Assembly (NCBI RefSeq): GCF_003148805.1
Contig: NZ_QGGX01000009.1
Span: forward strand, 1 to 64,000
Reading direction: 5' to 3'
DNA: 64,000 bases
From: Aminobacter sp. AP02
GTDB taxonomy: Bacteria > Pseudomonadota > Alphaproteobacteria > Rhizobiales > Rhizobiaceae
The notes below the pieces were generated by a model. That model saw nothing but the letters and a program-made list of their open reading frames with translations, was not told where the DNA came from and made no database searches. The position numbers were made by a program, and so were the translations under genes. Positions 25,472 to 34,594 of this stretch are shown one piece after another; the stretch's first letter is position 1; the number at the start of each line of letters is the position of its first letter.

Positions 25472-25898
25472 GACTTGCCTCCCTTAGTCAAAGCTTTGCG
25501 CGCACGCGCCATGAAAGCCTAGATGAGCCGAGCGATGTCTTGGACCGTGCCCTGAACGGACCGGTTCCACCGCATCATACACTCATCGAGCGCAGCATTG
25601 AACGCTGCGTTTACTCGTCTTTAGCCTGCCGGCACGCAGTCGGGATTAGCCTGAAATTCCAAAAATTTGCATTGCGTCTTATTCTGGCGCGGATCGTCGA
25701 TGCGGGCTTTGCAGTCGAGACACGCGATGCAAAGTAAAGCGACAGCGACGACAGGCAGCATCGTATTCCAGCGCAGGGATTCGGGTTACGATCCACGATC
25801 GGCTGCCAAGTCGAAAGGAACGATGCCATGCGGACTCTCGTTTTCATTGCCTTGTGCTGCGCGCAAGCAGCGGTCAAAACCAAACGGATCGCGAGCGC
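25472..25898. other. 427-bp divergent intergenic region with a possible 24-codon leader ORF
   Basis: This lies between AbgT and the solenoid protein and presumably holds both promoters. Near 25588-25610, AGCGCAGC and GCTGCGTT can form a stem. A 24-codon frame, 25826-25900 plus, begins MRTLVFIALCCAQAA behind AAAGGA and ends in a TGA that overlaps the ATG of the next gene (ATGA). It looks like a signal peptide and may only couple translation; I do not claim it as a gene. Confidence 0.35.
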
Positions 25899-27626
25899 AT
25901 GAACGAGCACGCACCGGAAGCCGGATCTGCCATCCCCGTTCAATCGGGCCTCGGCGACTTCCAGCCTCTGAACGCTGCCGAGACCAAGATCGTCTCGAAC
26001 CTGAAGTCGGGAGAATTCGACAGGCTTGGCGACGGCTCGCGTCCGGATTGGGACGATCCGGCGCGGACGGTACGCGCAGACCTGCTGCGCTTTCTCATTC
26101 TTGGAAGCGACAATGGCTTCCGCATGCACGAAAAGGGGCTGAGCATCAGTGGAGCCCGAGTTACAGGTGTCCTTGACCTCGAGGGATGCCGCATTCCACG
26201 CGATATCCGTCTCAAGGACTGCCTTTTCGACGCCTCTCCAGTGCTGCGTTCGGCCATTATCGACAACCTGTTCCTCGACGGTTCTGCATTGCCCGGGCTG
26301 CAAGCTGACCGGCTTGAAGCGCGCGGCGGCCTCTCCGTCCGTGGCGCTACCGTGACCGGCGAGATCCGACTTGGCGGCGCGCGCCTCGGCGGCAATATGG
26401 AAGCTGATGGCGCAACGATCTCGGTGCCTGACGGGATAGCGATCAATGCCGACGGGCTCGAAGCCAACGGCGGCATTCTGCTGCGTGGTGCAGATGTGCG
26501 CGGTGGTATCAATCTTTCGGCCACACGCCTTGGCGCCGACCTCAATGCGGTTGGCGCAACGATAAGACGGCCAGGTGGCGTGGCCCTTGATGGCGATGGC
26601 ATTGCCGCTAGAGGCGACCTCGCCCTGCGCGGGGCTACTATCGAAGGCGAGGTCCGAATGCGGGGAGCCCTGTTCGGCGGAGACGTCGACTGCACTTCCG
26701 CAACGCTCGTTGAACCCGACGGATACTCATTGAGGCTCAACCGCTCCCGCATCAGCGGCGCGTTCTTCCTTCGGCAAGGTGCGTCGCTGCAGGGGACGCT
26801 CGATCTGACAGCCACCGAGATTGGCGCGATCGACGACGAGCTGACGTCCTGGCCCCAAAAGGGGGACCTGCTGCTCAACCGTTGCCAGTACGGCGCGTTC
26901 ATAGGCGGTCCTGTCGATGCGACAAGCCGGCTCGACTGGCTCGCGCGCCAGGTGCCCGAGCGCTGGAAGGAAGACTTCTGGCCACAGCCTTACGAGCAGC
27001 TTTCAACCGTGCTTCGCGAGATGGGCCACGACGAAGATGCACGCGCTGTCCTCATCGCAAAAGAAAGGCTGCAACGGCGTGCAAGGCGGGCACGCGCAAA
27101 AAGCCCTCTCCTGCGCTCCGCATTGGCACTGAACGATGGCATGCTGGCGGTGACGGTACGCTATGGCCGTCAGCCGCTGCTTGCCTTGCTTTGGCTCACC
27201 TTGTTCTGGGGAATCGGAGTGGCCGTCTTCGGCTTTGCCGAGCGAAGCGGCGCACTGAAGCCCAACAGTCCGGTCGTCTTGCGTTCGCTTGAATGGACAA
27301 TGTGCGCGTTGGAACAGACCGAAAGCCGCTACATGCCTTCGACCGGCCAAGTCATGCCTGGTCGTGCTCTGGCCGGGCAAAACCAGCTTTCTTGCTTCTT
27401 GAGCCAGCCCGAAGCCTCAAGCTATCCCGAATACAATCCCTGGATGTATTCACTGGATTCGCTGTTGCCTGTCATGGAGATCGGACAGAAGGAGTATTGG
27501 CGACCCGATCCGTCCCAGCCGAACGGCGTCCTCACCTTGAACTACTATTACTTCCAGTCGGTTGTGGGCTGGGCGCTGAGCCTTCTGGCCGTCGCCGGGT
27601 TTTCGGGGCTCGTCAAATCGAAATAG
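25899..27626 (+). CDS. Beta-solenoid-like repeat protein with C-terminal membrane anchor
   Basis: From ATG 25899 the protein has 575 residues. Residues about 80-310 are a tandem array of roughly 20-residue units of the form G(A)-x-(V/I)-x-G-(x)-(I/L)-x-L-x-GA-x-(L/F)-GG-(N/D), such as LSVRGATVTGEIRLGGARLG. This suggests a pentapeptide-like or bactofilin-like right-handed solenoid. A helical segment follows (SRLDWLARQVPERWKEDFWPQPYEQL with EDARAVLIAKER), then two predicted C-terminal membrane spans (PLLALLWLTLFWGIGVAVFG and VVGWALSLLAVAGFSGLVK) flanking a 100-residue loop with several Cys. Similar proteins are annotated loosely as membrane-associated oxidoreductases, but I see no cofactor motif. 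It precedes the DUF900 lipoprotein and the antiporter cluster. Confidence 0.75.
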   Translation: MNEHAPEAGSAIPVQSGLGDFQPLNAAETKIVSNLKSGEFDRLGDGSRPDWDDPARTVRADLLRFLILGSDNGFRMHEKGLSISGARVTGVLDLEGCRIPRDIRLKDCLFDASPVLRSAIIDNLFLDGSALPGLQADRLEARGGLSVRGATVTGEIRLGGARLGGNMEADGATISVPDGIAINADGLEANGGILLRGADVRGGINLSATRLGADLNAVGATIRRPGGVALDGDGIAARGDLALRGATIEGEVRMRGALFGGDVDCTSATLVEPDGYSLRLNRSRISGAFFLRQGASLQGTLDLTATEIGAIDDELTSWPQKGDLLLNRCQYGAFIGGPVDATSRLDWLARQVPERWKEDFWPQPYEQLSTVLREMGHDEDARAVLIAKERLQRRARRARAKSPLLRSALALNDGMLAVTVRYGRQPLLALLWLTLFWGIGVAVFGFAERSGALKPNSPVVLRSLEWTMCALEQTESRYMPSTGQVMPGRALAGQNQLSCFLSQPEASSYPEYNPWMYSLDSLLPVMEIGQKEYWRPDPSQPNGVLTLNYYYFQSVVGWALSLLAVAGFSGLVKSK

Positions 27627-27866
27627 CCAGCAATCGCAAGGAGAGAACCAGCGATTCGCGACACGTGGGCGTCAACGACAGGCGCCATTTCGCGCGCAAT
27701 CCGGCCTGCGGTGCAGTTGGCTTGGAATCCCGCAGCTTTGCGTCACGTCCTGTTCTTTTGAGCATCCAGCGCAGTCGCCGCAATTTCCAACCCAATCGGT
27801 CGGTTCGTCGGTTGCCGCCTCGCAATTTTGCTGCTTCTCATCTCATGTGAATTTGCAAGGTCGAGC

Positions 27867-29015
27867 ATGTTGGCAAAGCGTCTGTTTCAATTTCTGTTGC
27901 TCGTGACGCTACTTGCAGGCTGCGGCGGGCCGCGCGCGGTCCTGGGTCTCGACACAACGGCGGACAGAACGGCCTCAGCTGCGGTCGTGCCGGTCTTTGT
28001 CGCGACAACGCGGGCACGATCGGACAATCTGTCCCTTCCCTATTCCGCCGAACGCTCTCAAACCCTCAACTTTGCCGAATTTGACATCGGAATCCCGCGA
28101 TATCACGTACCGGGAGACGTGGAAAAAACCGGTCGCATACCCGACCCGGCCCGCCACTTTACGGCGCTGACTTACCAGCCGATCGCAAACCGACAGAAGT
28201 TTGTCGCCCAACTCGACGCAGCGCTGCTGAAGCGTGCTCCGGAAGAGCGCGAAATCTTCATCTTCGTGCACGGCTACAACAACAATTTCGCCGACAGCGT
28301 CTTCCGTGCCGCACAGATCGCGCACGACTACAATGTCAGGGCGGTGACATTGCATTATGCCTGGCCTTCGGCTGGCTCGCTGCCGCTCTACGTTTATGAC
28401 CGCGACAGCACAGTTGTCGGCCGTGGCGGGCTTGCCGAGACGATCGAGATTGCCGCCCGGACCAAAGCCCGCAGGATTACCCTGGTTGGCCATTCCATGG
28501 GCGCTTATGTGGTGATGGAGGCGCTCCGCGAGATGGCGCAGACAGGGCGCGGCCAATACCTCAAGCGACTGAGCGGTGTCGTGCTCGCCGCTCCGGACAT
28601 CGACATCGACGCTTTCCAAAGCCAGGTCCGCGACATAGGCGAACTTCCTCGACCATTTGTCATCATCGTTTCGCGCCGTGACAGGGCCCTGAGTATTTCC
28701 AGGCGCATCGCTGGTGGACACCCACGCGTCGGCAGCGGCTCCGATATCGCCCTGCTGCGGGACAAGGACATCGTTGTTCTCGATGCGTCGGACCTGGACG
28801 GCGGCAACCATAGCGTGTTCGCGAGCTCGCCAACGTTGATAAGCCTTGTCGGCGATAGCGGCCTGATGCGCCACCTCATCGAAGGCGATCAGGCCAGTGC
28901 GACGGATACCATCCTTGCCGACGGCGGTTCGGCGATCGAAGGTGCGGCGGCCTTGGTCATCTACCTGCCGTCGCGCATCCTCGGCGGCGTGGCACTGGCG
29001 GGCCTCGCCCGATGA
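27867..29015 (+). CDS. DUF900-type alpha/beta-hydrolase lipoprotein
   Basis: From ATG 27867 (AAGG site) the product has 382 residues. The signal ends in lipobox LLAGC (Cys19), so it should be lipid-anchored in the envelope. An alpha/beta-hydrolase fold of the DUF900 group follows: VPVFVATTRARSD, IFIFVHGYNNNF (oxyanion region, about 131-142), the nucleophile elbow LVGHSMGAY with Ser210, and a candidate catalytic His in LDGGNHSVF. Cysteine replaces nothing in the triad, so it should be active as an esterase or related hydrolase; the substrate is unknown. It sits 46 bp before the antiporter operon on the same strand. The C-terminal 60 residues include a hydrophobic stretch (AALVIYLPSRILGGVALAGLA). 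Confidence 0.85.
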   Translation: MLAKRLFQFLLLVTLLAGCGGPRAVLGLDTTADRTASAAVVPVFVATTRARSDNLSLPYSAERSQTLNFAEFDIGIPRYHVPGDVEKTGRIPDPARHFTALTYQPIANRQKFVAQLDAALLKRAPEEREIFIFVHGYNNNFADSVFRAAQIAHDYNVRAVTLHYAWPSAGSLPLYVYDRDSTVVGRGGLAETIEIAARTKARRITLVGHSMGAYVVMEALREMAQTGRGQYLKRLSGVVLAAPDIDIDAFQSQVRDIGELPRPFVIIVSRRDRALSISRRIAGGHPRVGSGSDIALLRDKDIVVLDASDLDGGNHSVFASSPTLISLVGDSGLMRHLIEGDQASATDTILADGGSAIEGAAALVIYLPSRILGGVALAGLAR

Positions 29016-29061: not shown

Positions 29062-29598
29062 ATGACCGTGCCAACTGGCGGCAAGCGCGCACCAAGGGGG
29101 GGCCTTGGACTTCCCAAGGGCTTTCTCGGCTTGTGGCTGTTCCTGTTCATCCTGTGGCTGATCGTCAATTCATCCACCGCGCTTCCGATAGCTGCAACCG
29201 GTGCGGTCATTTCACTTGTCATCGCCTGGATCTTCGCGCGCCGCAGCAACGTCTGGCACATCGACCACTCGCCCCGCGGCGCATGGCACTTCCTCGCCTA
29301 TACCGCGACCTTCTTCACTGAACTGGTGAAGGCGAACATCAACATGCTGCGCTATGTCTACGCGCCCCGGATCGACATCCGACCCGGCATCGTCAAGGTC
29401 CATATCCGGCTGAAGTCGCCGATCGGGCGGCTGGCATTGGCCAACTCGATCGCGCTGACACCGGGCTCGCTGGTCATGGATGTGAGGGACGATGCCATGT
29501 TCATTCACTGGCTCGACGTCAAGACGACCGATCCGGACAAGGCTACCGAGATGATCGTAGGTCCGTTCGAGAAGCACCTGGAGGTGGTCTTTGGCTGA
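29062..29598 (+). CDS. mnhE: Monovalent cation/H+ antiporter subunit E (MrpE/MnhE)
   Basis: The 178-residue protein has two N-terminal membrane spans (GLWLFLFILWLIVNSSTAL and AATGAVISLVIAWIFA), a third near ATFFTELVKANINMLRYVY, and a soluble C-terminal domain with the MrpE mark NSIALTPGSLVMDV. It starts behind AGGAGTGG and overlaps the next gene by eight bases. It is the first gene of a seven-gene Mrp/Mbh-type cluster. In known Mrp complexes E is an accessory scaffold subunit. Confidence 0.92.
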   Translation: MTVPTGGKRAPRGGLGLPKGFLGLWLFLFILWLIVNSSTALPIAATGAVISLVIAWIFARRSNVWHIDHSPRGAWHFLAYTATFFTELVKANINMLRYVYAPRIDIRPGIVKVHIRLKSPIGRLALANSIALTPGSLVMDVRDDAMFIHWLDVKTTDPDKATEMIVGPFEKHLEVVFG

Positions 29599-29851
29599 GA
29601 CTATCCTCCAGATCGCCGGCGTTCTGATCTTCTTCAGCATCACGATGGGCGTGGTGCGCCTGGTCATTGGACCGACCATGATCGACCGGGTTGTCGCCAT
29701 CGACATGCTGACGGTCGTGTCGATCTCGCTGATCGCGCTTTACGCTCACATCTCCGGGCGTTTCGTTTATCTCGACGTCGCCCTGGTCTACGGCTTGCTG
29801 AGTTTTCTCGCCGTGCTTGCCATTGCCCGCTTTCTCGAAAAGGGGCCATGA
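29591..29851 (+). CDS. mnhF: Antiporter subunit F (MrpF/MnhF)
   Basis: An 86-residue protein with three membrane helices and the family segment VRLVIGPTMIDRVVAIDMLTV, which is diagnostic for MrpF. The start is a TTG at 29591 with GGAGGTGG placed inside the end of mnhE, so it is translationally coupled on both sides: it overlaps mnhE by eight bases and the next gene by four. MrpF binds close to the MrpA/MrpD ion path in Mrp structures. Confidence 0.92.
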   Translation: MAETILQIAGVLIFFSITMGVVRLVIGPTMIDRVVAIDMLTVVSISLIALYAHISGRFVYLDVALVYGLLSFLAVLAIARFLEKGP

Positions 29852-30099
29852 GCGCCATGCTTGAGCTCCTCGTCATCCTGGTCTGCGGTAGCATCCTGGT
29901 CAGCGGGATTCTCGCTGTATGCCTCGACAACCTCACGGCTGCGATGGTCAGCGCCGGACTTGCGAGCCTGTTTGCCGCGGTTTCCTACGTCCTGCTCGCC
30001 GCACCCGACGTCGCCATGGCCGAAGCAGCCATCGGGTCAGGCCTTGCGACGCTTATCTTCCTCTATGCGATCCGGCGCACCGGTGGCGGAAAGGGATGA
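29848..30099 (+). CDS. MbhD-like (DUF4040) antiporter subunit
   Basis: The 83-residue protein has three membrane spans and the DUF4040 pattern LAAPDVAMAEAAIGSGLATLIFLYAI. In canonical Mrp this module is the C-terminal part of MrpA or lies in group 2 MrpA-MrpB fusions; in archaeal Mbh/Mbx it is the separate MbhD subunit. Here it is an independent gene between F and G, which is the archaeal hydrogenase-like arrangement without any hydrogenase genes. The conserved acidic residues (APD, AEAA) that line the ion path are present. Confidence 0.85.
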   Translation: MSAMLELLVILVCGSILVSGILAVCLDNLTAAMVSAGLASLFAAVSYVLLAAPDVAMAEAAIGSGLATLIFLYAIRRTGGGKG

Positions 30100-30102
30100 C
30101 GA

Positions 30103-30444
30103 ATGGCTGAACTCATCGGCAGCATCGTCGTGCTCGTCGGCGCTTTCTTCCTGTTTTCCGCCGGCCTTGGCCTGTTGCGCATGCCCGACACCTTCACCCG
30201 CATCCAGGCAGGCACAAAGGCCTCGACGCTGGGCAACATCCTGGTTTTGGCGGGCCTCGGCATCTACCACCCCGAGTGGGCTCTCAAGCTCTTGATCATC
30301 GCCTATTTCGTGCTGATGACCAATCCGCTGTCATCGCACGCCCTGTCACGAGTTGCGCATGCGATCCGTACGCCAATGGCACCGTCGACGATGGCTGACG
30401 CCCTGCGCGACCAGGACGACCCCAAGGAGAACAAGCCTCGATGA
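30103..30444 (+). CDS. mnhG: Antiporter subunit G (MrpG/MnhG)
   Basis: A 113-residue protein with three membrane helices. The segment LGLLRMPDTFTRIQAGTKASTLG is the MrpG hallmark. It starts three bases after the MbhD-like gene and its stop overlaps the next ATG by four bases. The extra charged C-terminal tail (RDQDDPKENK) is short. It is a structural subunit of the complex. Confidence 0.93.
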   Translation: MAELIGSIVVLVGAFFLFSAGLGLLRMPDTFTRIQAGTKASTLGNILVLAGLGIYHPEWALKLLIIAYFVLMTNPLSSHALSRVAHAIRTPMAPSTMADALRDQDDPKENKPR

Positions 30445-31136
30445 AGCGCGCATTCACGCTGCTTGCCGTCCTGATGTTCGGCATCATCTTTGCCCGCATG
30501 GTGGGTGACTACAGCGAACGCCAAAGCGTTTCTGCGCTCGCCGAGCATTACCTGAGCGTCGTACCGCAAGAACTCGGCGCACCGAATGTCGTCACCGGCA
30601 TTCTCATCACCTTCCGCGGCTTCGATACGCTGGGCGAAGTCGCCGTTCTGTTCATGGTCGCCGCCAGTGTCGGCATACTGCTGGCGAGCCAGCCGGAGGC
30701 AAGGCAGCAGAAGGAATTGACGGAGCCCGAACCGCGCCGGCCCAGCGAGTTGGTGCAAAACGGCGCCGAGGTGATCTTGCCGCTGATTTTCCTGTTTGGC
30801 GCCTATGTGATCATGAACGGACATCTTTCGGCGGGCGGCGGATTTCAGGGAGGTGCTGTCGTTGCTTCAGCGGTCATGCTGCTAGTGCTCGCCAAGCCGT
30901 CATCGCAACTGCATCACGGCTTTCTCAGCATAACGGAATCGCTGGCTGGCGTGCTCTATGTCTCGATCGGCATTCTCGGGCTGATATTCGCCGCCGGTTT
31001 CCTGGACAGCCACATACTGCCAAAGGGCGATTTCGGCACCCTTTTCAGTGCAGGCGCGATCCCCCTGATATCAACGTTGCTCGGCATCAAGGTCGGCGCC
31101 GAACTTAGCGTCATCATCGACCGGTTCCGTAACTGA
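30441..31136 (+). CDS. MbhE-MnhB fusion antiporter subunit
   Basis: The 231-residue protein is longer than a normal MrpB (about 140). Residues 1 to about 95 resemble MbhE (APNVVTGILITFRGFDTLGEVAVLFMVAASVGIL), a module normally at the end of MrpA. A charged linker (QPEARQQKELTEPEPRRPS) follows, then a full MnhB domain (PLIFLFGAYVIMNGHLSAGGGFQGGAVVASAVML and LGIKVGAELSVIID). So the MrpA tail has been split between this fusion and the MbhD-like gene. The ATG overlaps mnhG by four bases; the gap to mnhC is 15 bp. Confidence 0.88.
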   Translation: MKRAFTLLAVLMFGIIFARMVGDYSERQSVSALAEHYLSVVPQELGAPNVVTGILITFRGFDTLGEVAVLFMVAASVGILLASQPEARQQKELTEPEPRRPSELVQNGAEVILPLIFLFGAYVIMNGHLSAGGGFQGGAVVASAVMLLVLAKPSSQLHHGFLSITESLAGVLYVSIGILGLIFAAGFLDSHILPKGDFGTLFSAGAIPLISTLLGIKVGAELSVIIDRFRN

Positions 31137-31151
31137 CGGCGAAGGAAAGCC

Positions 31152-31520
31152 ATGGGCCTGCCGGTTTCCCACATCCTCCTGGCGACAGGATTCCTGCTCG
31201 TGCTGATAGGCATGTGGGGCATGCTCAAACATCGCAATATCCTGCGCATTATCATCGGCTTCAGCCTGATCGATACCGGGCTGCATATCGTCATGGTGGC
31301 GACCGGCTACGTCACCGGCCATACCGCACCGATCATCGACAAAGCGCTTGGCATTGGGGATGCGACCTCGCGCGCCGTCGACCCCATACCCGCGGCACTC
31401 GTCGTCACCGCCATCGTCATCGGCTTTTCGGTGACTGCGGTCATGCTTGCTTTTGCAATCCGTGTCTATGACGCCAAGAAGAGCCTTTCGATCGACGCGC
31501 TGACGGAGTCGAAATGGTAG
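31152..31520 (+). CDS. mnhC: Antiporter subunit C (MrpC/MnhC, NuoK-like)
   Basis: The 122-residue protein has three membrane helices of NuoK type: LATGFLLVLIGMWGMLKHRN, IIIGFSLIDTGLHIVMVATG and the diagnostic PAALVVTAIVIGFSVTAVMLA. The first helices carry a conserved Gly/Met pattern, and the loop is charged. The stop overlaps the ATG of the large fused subunit by seven bases. MrpC/NuoK subunits sit next to the antiporter-like subunits and may carry protons. Confidence 0.92.
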   Translation: MGLPVSHILLATGFLLVLIGMWGMLKHRNILRIIIGFSLIDTGLHIVMVATGYVTGHTAPIIDKALGIGDATSRAVDPIPAALVVTAIVIGFSVTAVMLAFAIRVYDAKKSLSIDALTESKW

Positions 31521-34500
31521 AGGCCGTCCTCCAGCCGCTGAACATTTTCCTGCTTGGCCTCGGCGGCGGCTTTCTCATTCCGCTGCTCTACAAAATCGCC
31601 AAGCCATTGCCGGCCATCGCCTTCGTCGCGGCGCTGGTCGGTATCGCTGCGATCTCGGGCATCAATCTTTGGGCGCTTCACAACGGCCAGCCGACGATCG
31701 AGATACTGACGGCTGGCAGCACACCACCTTTCTCGATCAATCTGCGATTTGGTCTGTGGGAGGGCGTCTTCACCTTCAGCGTCAACGTCGCGGCCCTCCT
31801 GGGTGCTTGGCACCTATGGGGGCGCCTGCGCGACAGCTATGCGGCGCTGCTGCTTTATCTGATCCTGGTCATGGGCATCAACGGCATGGTGATGACCCGA
31901 GACCTGTTCAACCTGTTCGTGTTCCTGGAGATCGTCTCGATCGCCACCTACGGCTTGCTGGGCCTGGACCGCGGCGCGGCAGCGCTCGCGGCGAGCTTCA
32001 AGTACATCATGGCGACAGTGCTCGCCTCGACCTTCTTCCTGCTCGGTTCGGTGCTTCTCTATCACGTCACGGGAACGCTCAATATCGACGAGATGATCGC
32101 GCGGCGCGACCTCATCGCCGGGCCGATCGGCGTTACCGCGCTGCTTTTGGTTCTGTCGTGCCTGGTCATCGAGCTCAAGCCGTTCCCGGCGAATGGCTGG
32201 GGCCTCGACGTCTACGAGGCCGCCCCAAGCGGGGTATCAGCCCTAATATCGGGCGGTGTGTCGGCCGGCGTCTTCTTCGCCCTGCTCAAGCTGTTGCCGC
32301 TGTTCGAAAACCACCTCGGCATCATTGCGATTTCGGGCGGTGTAAGCTTCCTGTTTTCCAACCTCATCGGATTGAAGCAGACAAACGTCCAGCGAATGCT
32401 TGGCTACTCCTCCGTCGCGCAGATGGGGCTGTTGATGCTGGCGCTCGCACTGCTGGACAAACTTGGCGCCGAGGCATCGCTGCCGCTTGTTGTCGGTGGC
32501 TTGTTCGTCAATCATCTTTTCGCCAAGGCAGGCCTGTTCTGGCTCGCCGGCGCGGTCGGGCGAAGCGAGATATCCGCCTGGCCCGCAATCGCAGGACGCC
32601 CGCTTGTACTGCTGGTCATGGCCCTGCTTCTGGTCGCCATCTCCGGCCTGCCGCCCTTCCCCGGCTTCTGGGCCAAATGGGAACTGGTGATGCAACTCTC
32701 CAGGGGTCAACAATATGCCTGGATCCTCGTCATCCTGGCAGGGTCGCTGCTGGAAGCGGCCTACATGTTCAGCTGGTTCAAGCAAGCTACCCGCTCCGTG
32801 CCGAACCAGACGCCGGTACGGCCCGCTCTCCGCGCCCTGTTGCCGGCCACGATTTCGGTCGTCGTGCTAGCAGTCAGTGGCTACCTTGCCGCAAACATCG
32901 CGGGCGTGGCCTCGCTCTGGCTATTTGCGCCGCTGTGCATCGGCGGTCTGCTTTATGCGCTCGACTGGCTGCCCGGCCGGGTCAAATGCACGATGATGCT
33001 TCTTGCGGTCCTGTTCGTCGGCAATTGGATCATCGGCGACCTGCAGGGCCTAAACCGACTTTTTGCGGTCCTGCTATTGACGTGCGGACTGGTCGTGGCC
33101 TCCGCCGGCCTCTATCGCAACGACGCCCGTCCCGGCTATTTTCCGCTCATGGCCGTGCTGCTGCTGTCGATTGCCGCCTTATTGCGATCGTCAACGAGCC
33201 TGGAGTTCTTCTTCAGCTGGGAACTCATTACGCTCTCGTCTTATTTTCTAATAGCGCAGGGGCGAAACGCGCATCCCCATGCCCTGCCCTTCCTGTTGTT
33301 TTCGCTCGTTTCGGCATTCAGCCTGCTTGCCGGTTTCGCACTGGCGACAGCAGCCAACGGCACCACTGCCCTTGTCGCCTTCGGCAGCGCATCCGGTCCC
33401 GTGGCCGAGGCGGCATTCATCTTCCTGGCTCTCGGCTTTCTCATCAAGGCCGGCGCAATCGGCGCGCATGTCTGGCTGCCGGGCGCCTATGCGGAAGCCG
33501 ACGACGACCTGTCGGCGATGCTGTCGTCGGTTGTCAGCAAGGTGGCGATCTTCGGCCTGTTCATCGTCACCTACCTTGCCATCCGCTCGGAGACCGGGCT
33601 GGAACTCGCCCACGTCATGGGCTGGATCGGCCTGCTGACGACAGTGGCCGGGGCGGTGATGGCCTTTCAGCAGAACGACATGAAGCGCCTGCTCGCCTAT
33701 TCCAGCATGAGCCAGCTCGGTTACATCATCACGGCGATCGCGCTGATGAGCCATCTCGGCTGGGTGACGGCGCTCTACCTCGTTGCCAACCACCTGATGG
33801 TCAAGGGCATTCTGTTTCTTGCTGTCGCCGGGATCATCCTGCGGACCGGCACAAGGATGCTTGAAGCCAATGACCGGCTATGGCGGAAAATGCCACTCAC
33901 CTTCGCGACCGTCGTCATAGCCTTGATCTCGATGTCCGGCCTGCCGCCGCTCGCCGGCTTTGGCGGCAAATGGCTGTTGCTGAGTGCCATGGTCGAAAAG
34001 GGCTGGTATGGGCTCGCAGCAATCGGCGTGCTCGCCACATTCATTGGCTTTCTCTACATGTTTCGCCTGGCCCATGCCGTATTCTTCGGCCCCGCCAGGC
34101 CGGAGCGGACGACAATCCAGGAGGCGCCCCTCCAGTTGCTTTTGCCGCAATTGGTTCTGGTCTTGGCCATCCTTGCGCTGTCGTTCCTGCCAAAGCTCTT
34201 CATGGAGCCGGTTTCTCAGGCAATCGATCCCTATTTCGCCTCGACGCTGGTCTGGGAGGGCATGTCCCTCGAGACCATCTATGGCTACTGGAACCCGATG
34301 CCGGTATTGGCCGCCTCTACAGCTGCTGCGGCCTTGTTGTTCGCACTGGCTTGGCTGATCTACCGGCGTGCGCGCCATCACGGCACGTCGCTTGACCTTG
34401 GGCGATTTTACAATTTCTACCAGGCTGTTCTCGCCCCGGTAGTCCTGCCGGTGGCGGATGCGTTCTGGAACGGGGTGTCACGCCTTGTTATCGATGCCGC

Positions 34501-34594
34501 CGGCTCGGTGCGCAGGCTCTACACCGGCAATGGCCAGACCTATCTTCTCTATGTGCTCTATTATGTCGTCGCGATCTACGTCGCGGCGATCTGA
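31514..34594 (+). CDS. Tandem-fused antiporter-like subunit (two MrpD/NuoN-type domains)
   Basis: The 1026-residue protein is about twice the length of MrpD. Residues 1 to about 480 form one proton-conducting domain with the conserved Glu139 (DLFNLFVFLEI) and Lys222 (ELKPFPANGW), aligning in position with the essential Glu/Lys of MrpD. Residues about 490-1000 form a second with Glu570 (EFFFSWELI) and Lys645 (LGFLIKAGAIGAHVWLPGAYAEA). The C-terminus (RFYNFYQAVLAP to YTGNGQTYLLYVLYY) recalls MbhH/HyfB-type ends. Each half has about 14 membrane spans. It probably replaces both MrpA and MrpD in one chain; whether it moves sodium, potassium or only protons is not shown. Confidence 0.9.
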   Translation: MVEAVLQPLNIFLLGLGGGFLIPLLYKIAKPLPAIAFVAALVGIAAISGINLWALHNGQPTIEILTAGSTPPFSINLRFGLWEGVFTFSVNVAALLGAWHLWGRLRDSYAALLLYLILVMGINGMVMTRDLFNLFVFLEIVSIATYGLLGLDRGAAALAASFKYIMATVLASTFFLLGSVLLYHVTGTLNIDEMIARRDLIAGPIGVTALLLVLSCLVIELKPFPANGWGLDVYEAAPSGVSALISGGVSAGVFFALLKLLPLFENHLGIIAISGGVSFLFSNLIGLKQTNVQRMLGYSSVAQMGLLMLALALLDKLGAEASLPLVVGGLFVNHLFAKAGLFWLAGAVGRSEISAWPAIAGRPLVLLVMALLLVAISGLPPFPGFWAKWELVMQLSRGQQYAWILVILAGSLLEAAYMFSWFKQATRSVPNQTPVRPALRALLPATISVVVLAVSGYLAANIAGVASLWLFAPLCIGGLLYALDWLPGRVKCTMMLLAVLFVGNWIIGDLQGLNRLFAVLLLTCGLVVASAGLYRNDARPGYFPLMAVLLLSIAALLRSSTSLEFFFSWELITLSSYFLIAQGRNAHPHALPFLLFSLVSAFSLLAGFALATAANGTTALVAFGSASGPVAEAAFIFLALGFLIKAGAIGAHVWLPGAYAEADDDLSAMLSSVVSKVAIFGLFIVTYLAIRSETGLELAHVMGWIGLLTTVAGAVMAFQQNDMKRLLAYSSMSQLGYIITAIALMSHLGWVTALYLVANHLMVKGILFLAVAGIILRTGTRMLEANDRLWRKMPLTFATVVIALISMSGLPPLAGFGGKWLLLSAMVEKGWYGLAAIGVLATFIGFLYMFRLAHAVFFGPARPERTTIQEAPLQLLLPQLVLVLAILALSFLPKLFMEPVSQAIDPYFASTLVWEGMSLETIYGYWNPMPVLAASTAAAALLFALAWLIYRRARHHGTSLDLGRFYNFYQAVLAPVVLPVADAFWNGVSRLVIDAAGSVRRLYTGNGQTYLLYVLYYVVAIYVAAI

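Follow-up and report, generated by a model that had tools for sequence, protein, structure and literature searches.

In the membrane-bound sulfane sulfur reductase of Pyrococcus furiosus (MBS, formerly MBX; PDB 6u8y), the loop between transmembrane helices (TMH) 15 and 16 of MbsH′, called Loop 1, ties the redox arm to the ion pumps, and the published evolutionary scheme runs from Mrp antiporters to MBS and the membrane-bound hydrogenase (MBH) (PMC7684303). Stand-alone antiporters of Mrp Group 3, including that of P. furiosus, and the diversity of Mrp gene clusters have also been described (PMC5703873, PMC8415708). Here we analyse an operon of seven genes at positions 29062-34594 (+ strand) of a 64,000-nucleotide stretch of Aminobacter sp. 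AP02 DNA (contig NZ_QGGX01000009.1, hereafter the window). Our reading, to which we assign a probability of roughly 0.78, is that the operon encodes an MBS- or complex-I-like membrane arm in which the H and H′ subunits have been fused, which lost its redox arm once, had its docking loop cut and is now an Mrp-type antiporter. This reading draws on gene content, relationship, the rooted order of events, the lack of a spare redox arm in the organism's own genome and purifying selection, all of them read from sequence.

The genes run in the order E-F-MbhD-G-(MbhE+MnhB)-C-fused chain and overlap or nearly so in the list of open reading frames (ORFs), as described in an earlier note on this DNA, and each is backed by a Pfam family match above the curated cut-off. 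The first two encode an MrpE/MbsA-type subunit of 178 residues (29062..29598; PF01899 (MNHE), 125 bits) and an MrpF/MbsB-type subunit of 86 residues (29591..29851; PF04066 (MrpF_PhaF), 63.5 bits). They are followed by an MbhD/MbsD-type subunit of 83 residues (29848..30099; PF13244, 58 bits), which is a C-terminal module of MrpA standing as its own gene, and by an MrpG/MbsC-type subunit of 113 residues (30103..30444; PF03334 (PhaG_MnhG_YufB), 87 bits; NF009314, 114 bits with a cut-off of 102). An MbsE-type fusion of MbhE to MnhB (231 residues, 30441..31136) combines PF20501 and PF04039 in one chain, so that the earlier description of the MrpA C-terminal modules as an 83-residue gene plus an N-terminal fusion to MnhB is borne out. 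The last two genes encode an MrpC/MbsG-type subunit of 122 residues (31152..31520; PF00420 (Oxidored_q2)) and a fused MbsH-MbsH′ chain of 1026 residues (31514..34594) with two Proton_antipo_M stretches, half 1 covering residues ~1-465 and half 2 ~466-1026.

Every membrane subunit type compared with MBS (A, B, C, D, E, G, H and H′) is present, with D, E, G, H and H′ matched to PDB chains and A, B and C (the products of the E, F and G genes) assigned by family only. The best solved match is MBS for all five chains or half-chains so compared. Half 1 matches MbsH at 151.6 bits (next MbhH, 108.8) and half 2 matches MbsH′ at 162.7 bits (next 121.4); the C subunit matches 6u8y_G at 85 bits, and MbhD matches 6u8y_D, narrowly, at 48.8 bits compared with 47.8 for MBH. 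Residues 1-228 of the MbhE+MnhB chain match residues 2-227 of MbsE (6u8y_E) end to end, at 150 bits against 57 for MbhF. MbsE is itself a fusion of MbhE with MbhF (PMC8415708), which contradicts the earlier statement that archaeal complexes keep MbhE separate. The locus also resembles MBS in pairing H and H′ with the two halves and in having Glu at the TMH7 place of H. It differs in having no M, J, K, L, N redox arm, in the fusion of H to H′, in a short stretch at the place of Loop 1, in having lost the TMH8 lysine of H and gained Lys222, and in that MbhD and G are swapped relative to the MBS-like order of its relatives.

Other described systems fit less completely. The operon holds homologues of MrpB-G together with MrpA domains and no redox subunits, which is the gene content of Group 3 Mrp (CPA3) in the broad sense, and like the P. 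furiosus, cyanobacterial and Microbacterium clusters of that group it is stand-alone, irregular in gene order and non-canonical in MrpA. The P. furiosus Mrp, however, is described as having no MrpA homologue and as carrying MbhD fused with MbhE (PMC8415708), whereas here H′ is fused to H and MbhE to MnhB. Canonical Mrp/Pha systems of Groups 1 and 2 share the full set of subunit families and the absence of a redox arm, but in the window the MrpA N-domain and MbhD/E are not in one chain, the C-terminal modules being split off. NuoB, C, D and H, which would mark respiratory complex I, are missing from the operon unit, and the seven genes do not make up an MBH, a group 4 hydrogenase.

The fused chain shows 30 hydrophobic stretches in a hydropathy scan, one of them probably the amphipathic helix HL, where roughly 14 + 16 helices would be expected. 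We built a tree from 20 fused chains, each cut in two, and 11 references. In it each half makes a group of its own (support 100 for both), half 1 beside MbsH (Shimodaira-Hasegawa-like approximate likelihood ratio test (SH-aLRT) 93) and half 2 beside MbsH′ (94), both apart from the MrpD, MrpA, MbhH, NuoL and NuoM references; NuoN, on a long branch, lies just outside the group of MbsH and half 1 (84). The chain is therefore H joined to H′, of the MrpA-N/NuoL type, and not the doubled MrpD that the earlier note had read. We rejected a recent tandem duplication of one MrpD because the halves fall with different MBS subunits, and a canonical Mrp variant because neither half joins the MrpA or MrpD references included in the tree. 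This phylogeny was among the checks that the note had proposed. The matches to solved structures support its view of a free-standing complex closer to an archaeal Mbh/Mbs-type arm than to canonical bacterial Mrp. The note's interpretation is thus partly supported; it missed the redox arm of the relatives and the loss of that arm in the clade of the window.

We aligned 77 fused chains, comprising 31 redox-type rows (including L057, which lies at a contig end) and 46 stand-alone rows. Glu139, Glu220, Lys222, His334, Lys388, Glu570, Lys645, Lys676 and His760 are invariant in all 77. Of the residues that the note had named, Glu139, Glu570 and Lys645 stand at canonical positions, but Lys222 is not the TMH7 lysine. 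It lies two residues past that place, which is occupied by Glu220; in the alignments Glu220 faces Glu219 of MbsH and, in MbhH and others, the TMH7 lysine (MBS numbering from PMC7684303). The motif E220-L-K222-P (32171..32182, + strand) keeps its E, K and P in 77/77 chains, and the TMH8 lysine (MbsH Lys250) is replaced by Ala, Thr or Ser in the same 77. Half 2 keeps the canonical residue set, with Arg for the TMH12 lysine in at least L086 and L090. Half 1 being without the canonical TMH7 and TMH8 lysines, the halves are not equivalent; because redox-coupled relatives share this change, it is not a mark of redox loss.

Could the operon be a decaying remnant without function? Five genes and part of a loop have gone, and at one locus (L053:6001-9124, Rhizobium cauense) a frameshift or an assembly error divides the fused gene between two frames. 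The fused gene is nevertheless under purifying selection, with dN (nonsynonymous divergence) 0.17, dS (synonymous divergence) 0.93 and dN/dS of about 0.18 relative to L013, and values of 0.08-0.20 across the seven fused-gene pairs tried. The nine key residues are also kept in 46/46 stand-alone rows, and we regard decay as very improbable.

A pattern-based protein scan of a genome collection with one genome per species (84,980 species) recovered 66 fused-chain loci. The fused chain is not a chance product, because it recurs in these loci with the other subunit genes adjoining wherever the contig reaches. Forty of them have the window's gene order where the operon is in reach and no redox gene downstream, and all 40 are Hyphomicrobiales by title or belong to genera that we placed there. 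The other 26 carry titles of gammaproteobacterial, Proteobacteria, Spirochaetes or Bacteroidales lineages, and where the contig allows, the fused gene is followed on the + strand by five genes encoding NuoH, NuoB, NuoC, NuoD and a GltD/NfnB-type protein of ~600 residues (flavin adenine dinucleotide and iron-sulfur). This set is whole or partial in 23 of the 26, the remaining three (L055, L057 and L064) ending inside the fused gene.

The survey was extended to the organism's own order, where a fused chain was detected at E <= 1e-100 in 18 of 397 genomes (14 of the 17 besides its own were examined), and to the phylum, with 7 of 398 genomes (five examined). The 19 loci so added comprise 8 of the window type without redox genes and 11 with all five; in the latter the halves are only 36-41% identical to those of the window, and the order is E-F-G-MbhD in the 10 whose contig reaches. 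Overall, no redox module occurs in any of the 48 window-type loci whose downstream sequence extends for 5.4 kb or more, and redox genes, all or part, follow the fused arm in 34/34 non-window-type loci with room. This tally omits L070, L055, L057 and L064, whose contigs stop within or at the fused gene; L051, with NuoH alone, is counted as redox-coupled. Given the length of downstream sequence in the 48 loci, we rejected the idea of redox genes hidden past contig ends. Redox-coupled fused arms thus occur in gammaproteobacteria, Spirochaetes, Bacteroidales and some alphaproteobacteria. Where compared, their chains (L039, L041, L056, L066, L090 and others) belong to the same H-H′ family at 36-55% identity, and these operons have all seven subunits; they differ from the window in the NuoH-B-C-D and GltD/NfnB-like genes and in keeping a long loop.

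Some features of these loci stand apart from the question of redox loss. Complex-I-like operons of 12 genes, which include a GltD/NfnB-like flavoprotein and have no visible NuoEFG alongside, are found at L041:5980-14338, L066:5992-14306, L056:6001-14392 and L085-L090. Thermotoga TM1205-TM1217 may be a relative of this redox-coupled form. In the Candidatus Thiosymbion loci L047 and L051, some genes of the redox-coupled operon lie 2-3 kb apart. In the eight sequences examined, the NuoD-like subunit of redox-coupled relatives reads HPGITG, where the complex I counterpart reads HPSTHG, and NuoB has GCGAIE, GCGSIE or a similar sequence in every one except L039. Because of these NuoD-like and NuoB motifs, the electron acceptor of the redox-coupled relatives may not be ubiquinone in the usual way. 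The stand-alone operon, with a short loop, is also present on a plasmid of the root-nodule betaproteobacterium Paraburkholderia sprentiae (L103, NZ_CP017563.2), probably by horizontal transfer; the trees do not include this copy. A plasmid of Rhizobium sp. SL42 carries a further copy, whose seven mrp genes are tabled without comment in the part of the genome paper that lists them (PMC12993520). Two public records annotate genes of the operon as antiporter, hydrogenase or proton-conducting transporter subunits, and among the open-access literature matches listed we found no account of the H-H′ fusion, of redox-coupled fused-arm operons or of redox-arm loss.

The order of events was read from trees rooted on relatives with unfused genes. 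In Spirochaetota, 11 of 198 genomes match at E <= 1e-45, and nine regions were examined. Eight have separate H and H′ ORFs in the order E-F-G-MbhD-(MbhE+MnhB)-C-H-H′-NuoH, with GltD reached in five and the other three ending earlier; the ninth (L115) has a fused chain and all five redox genes. On an 87-row tree with the unfused spirochaetes and MBS as outgroup, fusion requires one change and redox loss one change. A bootstrapped 35-row tree recovers the stand-alone clade at 100/100 and joins it with five gammaproteobacterial redox rows at 100/99. A tree constrained to keep the 18 redox-coupled fused rows in a single clade is worse by 33.7 log units (approximately unbiased (AU) test, p=0.0004). 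The redox label was taken from gene content and, for the first loci, tallied before any tree was made; earlier trees were known before the AU test. Neither the trees nor the loop count include the stand-alone loci L023 and L070, which are partial, or L053 with its split gene. A tree of the redox module (26 loci) shares its deep groups with the arm tree and differs in the order of L047/L050 and inside the gamma- and alphaproteobacterial groups.

By this rooted gene tree, the stand-alone type is nested within redox-coupled ones and the redox arm was lost once. The opposite polarity, in which an ordinary Group 3 Mrp antiporter is ancestral and redox modules were added in other lineages, would accord with the known stand-alone Group 3 Mrp of P. 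furiosus (PMC8415708). It is unlikely, however, given that the unfused outgroups already carry the same redox genes, that the stand-alone clade is nested and monophyly of the redox-coupled rows is rejected, and that it would need several gains of the same module in the same place with congruent deep trees. We propose instead that the operon encodes, in full, the membrane arm that moves ions in a complex-I-like respiratory enzyme of the MBS type. The lineage would have started with a redox module and unfused H and H′; fusion would have followed, and lastly the loss of the NuoH-B-C-D and GltD/NfnB-like redox arm with the shortening of Loop 1, MbhD and G having swapped places somewhere between the first and last steps. 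The clade affected would comprise Hyphomicrobiales, one genome outside the organism's own order and the betaproteobacterial plasmid copy.

The place of Loop 1 carries a trace consistent with this sequence of events. The stretch from TMH15 through the TMH15-HL loop to the start of HL (W926-W985; 34289..34468, + strand) has 60 residues in the window. It has 75-77 in 30/30 redox-coupled chains and 57-69 in 46/46 stand-alone chains, with L057 excluded from these loop and state counts; shortness is judged here against the redox-coupled relatives, the MbsH′ loop itself lying outside the sequence compared. The motif QFNIVYAAE, loosely written, is found in 28/30 redox-coupled chains, with close variants in the other two (L060 and L101), and in 0/46 stand-alone chains. 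TMH15 and the loop are more variable in the stand-alone set (2.00 and 1.95 bits) than in the redox-coupled one (1.35 and 1.23), whereas in eight other stretches compared the stand-alone chains are the less variable. By homology with MBS, the loop of the redox-coupled relatives would dock NuoH/NuoD.

It could be argued that the arm still serves a redox partner encoded elsewhere, either the peripheral arm of complex I or an unrecognised protein, since TMH15, a shortened loop and HL are retained and two neighbouring genes recur. One of these encodes a pentapeptide-repeat membrane protein (window 25854-27626) and the other a DUF900 alpha/beta hydrolase (window 27828-29015); they stand beside the operon in 22 and 22 of 85 loci respectively, in Rhizobiaceae and Phyllobacteriaceae and in differing orientations, which hints at a functional link with it. 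The gene content of the genomes speaks against such a partner. The 5.6-Mb genome of the organism has nine Proton_antipo_M stretches including the two halves of the fused chain; we take three at C9 210-215 kb for nuoL/M/N, and a pair each on C1 and C3 for two MrpA/MrpD clusters. It has one NuoH and one 49-kDa (NuoD) relative, both in the nuo region (C9 217-224 kb), and on this ground we rejected a second redox arm elsewhere in it. No NuoB, C, D or H lies beside the operon; NuoH and NuoD types were sought genome-wide, and the search for B, C and GltD types was confined to the surroundings of the operon. None of the seven operon genes encodes a NiFe large or small subunit, the genome having been searched by the 49-kDa family (one match, in the nuo region) and not by a NiFe hydrogenase family.

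The same picture holds across relatives. Exactly one NuoH, of complex I strength, was found in 19 of 21 stand-alone genomes searched. Of the two exceptions, G755 has two NuoH of complex I strength, and the one extra NuoH of G761 (Beijerinckia) adjoins its own antiporter-like and 49-kDa genes. In 12/12 redox-coupled genomes searched, by comparison, a weaker NuoH (142-165 bits) lies at the operon, and in G749 it is the only NuoH. As the docking loop of the stand-alone form is moreover shortened and variable, a redox partner elsewhere seems improbable.

If the redox arm has gone, the complex probably now works as a sodium/proton exchanger. In the mechanism proposed for Mrp, protons passing through two antiporter-like units drive one cation out at MrpC, MbhD and MrpG (PMC7419157). 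Applied to the window complex, this would make it an electrogenic cation/proton antiporter: the proton gradient acting through the H/H′ chain would drive expulsion of Na+ (or K+) via the E-F-G-MbhD-MbhE/MnhB-C module, and the fusion would tie two antiporter-like units to one cation path. Both residues of the MbhD acidic pair (D..E in APDVAMAEAA) are kept in 46/46 stand-alone and 27/27 redox sequences aligned. Many of the small-subunit charges conserved above 90% in the stand-alone set are equally kept in the redox-coupled one (six in MnhB; most of those in F and G). Three MbhE charges stand at 91% in the stand-alone set, where the misses could be cut hits. In the Kaistia loci L024, L028 and L048 the MbhE+MnhB ORF is ~60 residues longer than in the window.

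Transport other than Na+/H+ exchange, of K+ or Ca2+ or with a carbon-uptake partner, is a minor possibility. Mrp complexes preferring K+ or Ca2+ have been described (PMC5703873), and a third complex in a genome with two other Mrp clusters may have another job. The conserved charges, however, largely match those of the redox-coupled relatives, and neither the two annotated records nor the window neighbours scanned showed a carbon-uptake partner, no systematic search having been made.

Several observations weigh against an Mrp-type antiporter derived by a single redox loss. With neither the TMH7 nor the TMH8 lysine, half 1 may fail to conduct protons in the manner of MrpD. In C and E, several charges conserved among stand-alone sequences are different in the redox-coupled ones (for example, His50 and His62 of C, alignment numbering), and Na+ as the substrate and the outward direction are what we infer from the Mrp comparison. 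At L051 the contig continues, yet NuoH is the only module gene seen there. MbhD and G stand in the swapped order (MbhD-G) at L050 and in the old order at L051, and the arm tree sets L050 outside L047/L051 (85/66); the module tree places L047/L051 outside L050, which would make the MbhD/G swap a single event and fits the swap better than the weak arm-tree node. The outgroup branches are long, and the trees leave the deepest order of the fused groups unsettled.

In summary, the operon is likely to represent a redox-driven pump gone backwards, which shed its electron-transfer arm and part of its coupling loop and persists among Hyphomicrobiales as a secondary antiporter standing on its own. Accounts of complex I evolution usually have redox modules being added to an Mrp antiporter; here the reverse is indicated by the rooted tree together with the gene neighbourhoods and the shortened loop. 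If this is true, the clade would be a natural deletion experiment on redox coupling. Together with its close redox-coupled sister it would provide matched complexes for asking how electron transfer couples to ion movement, what residues coupling alone requires and whether the membrane arm is reversible as a module.

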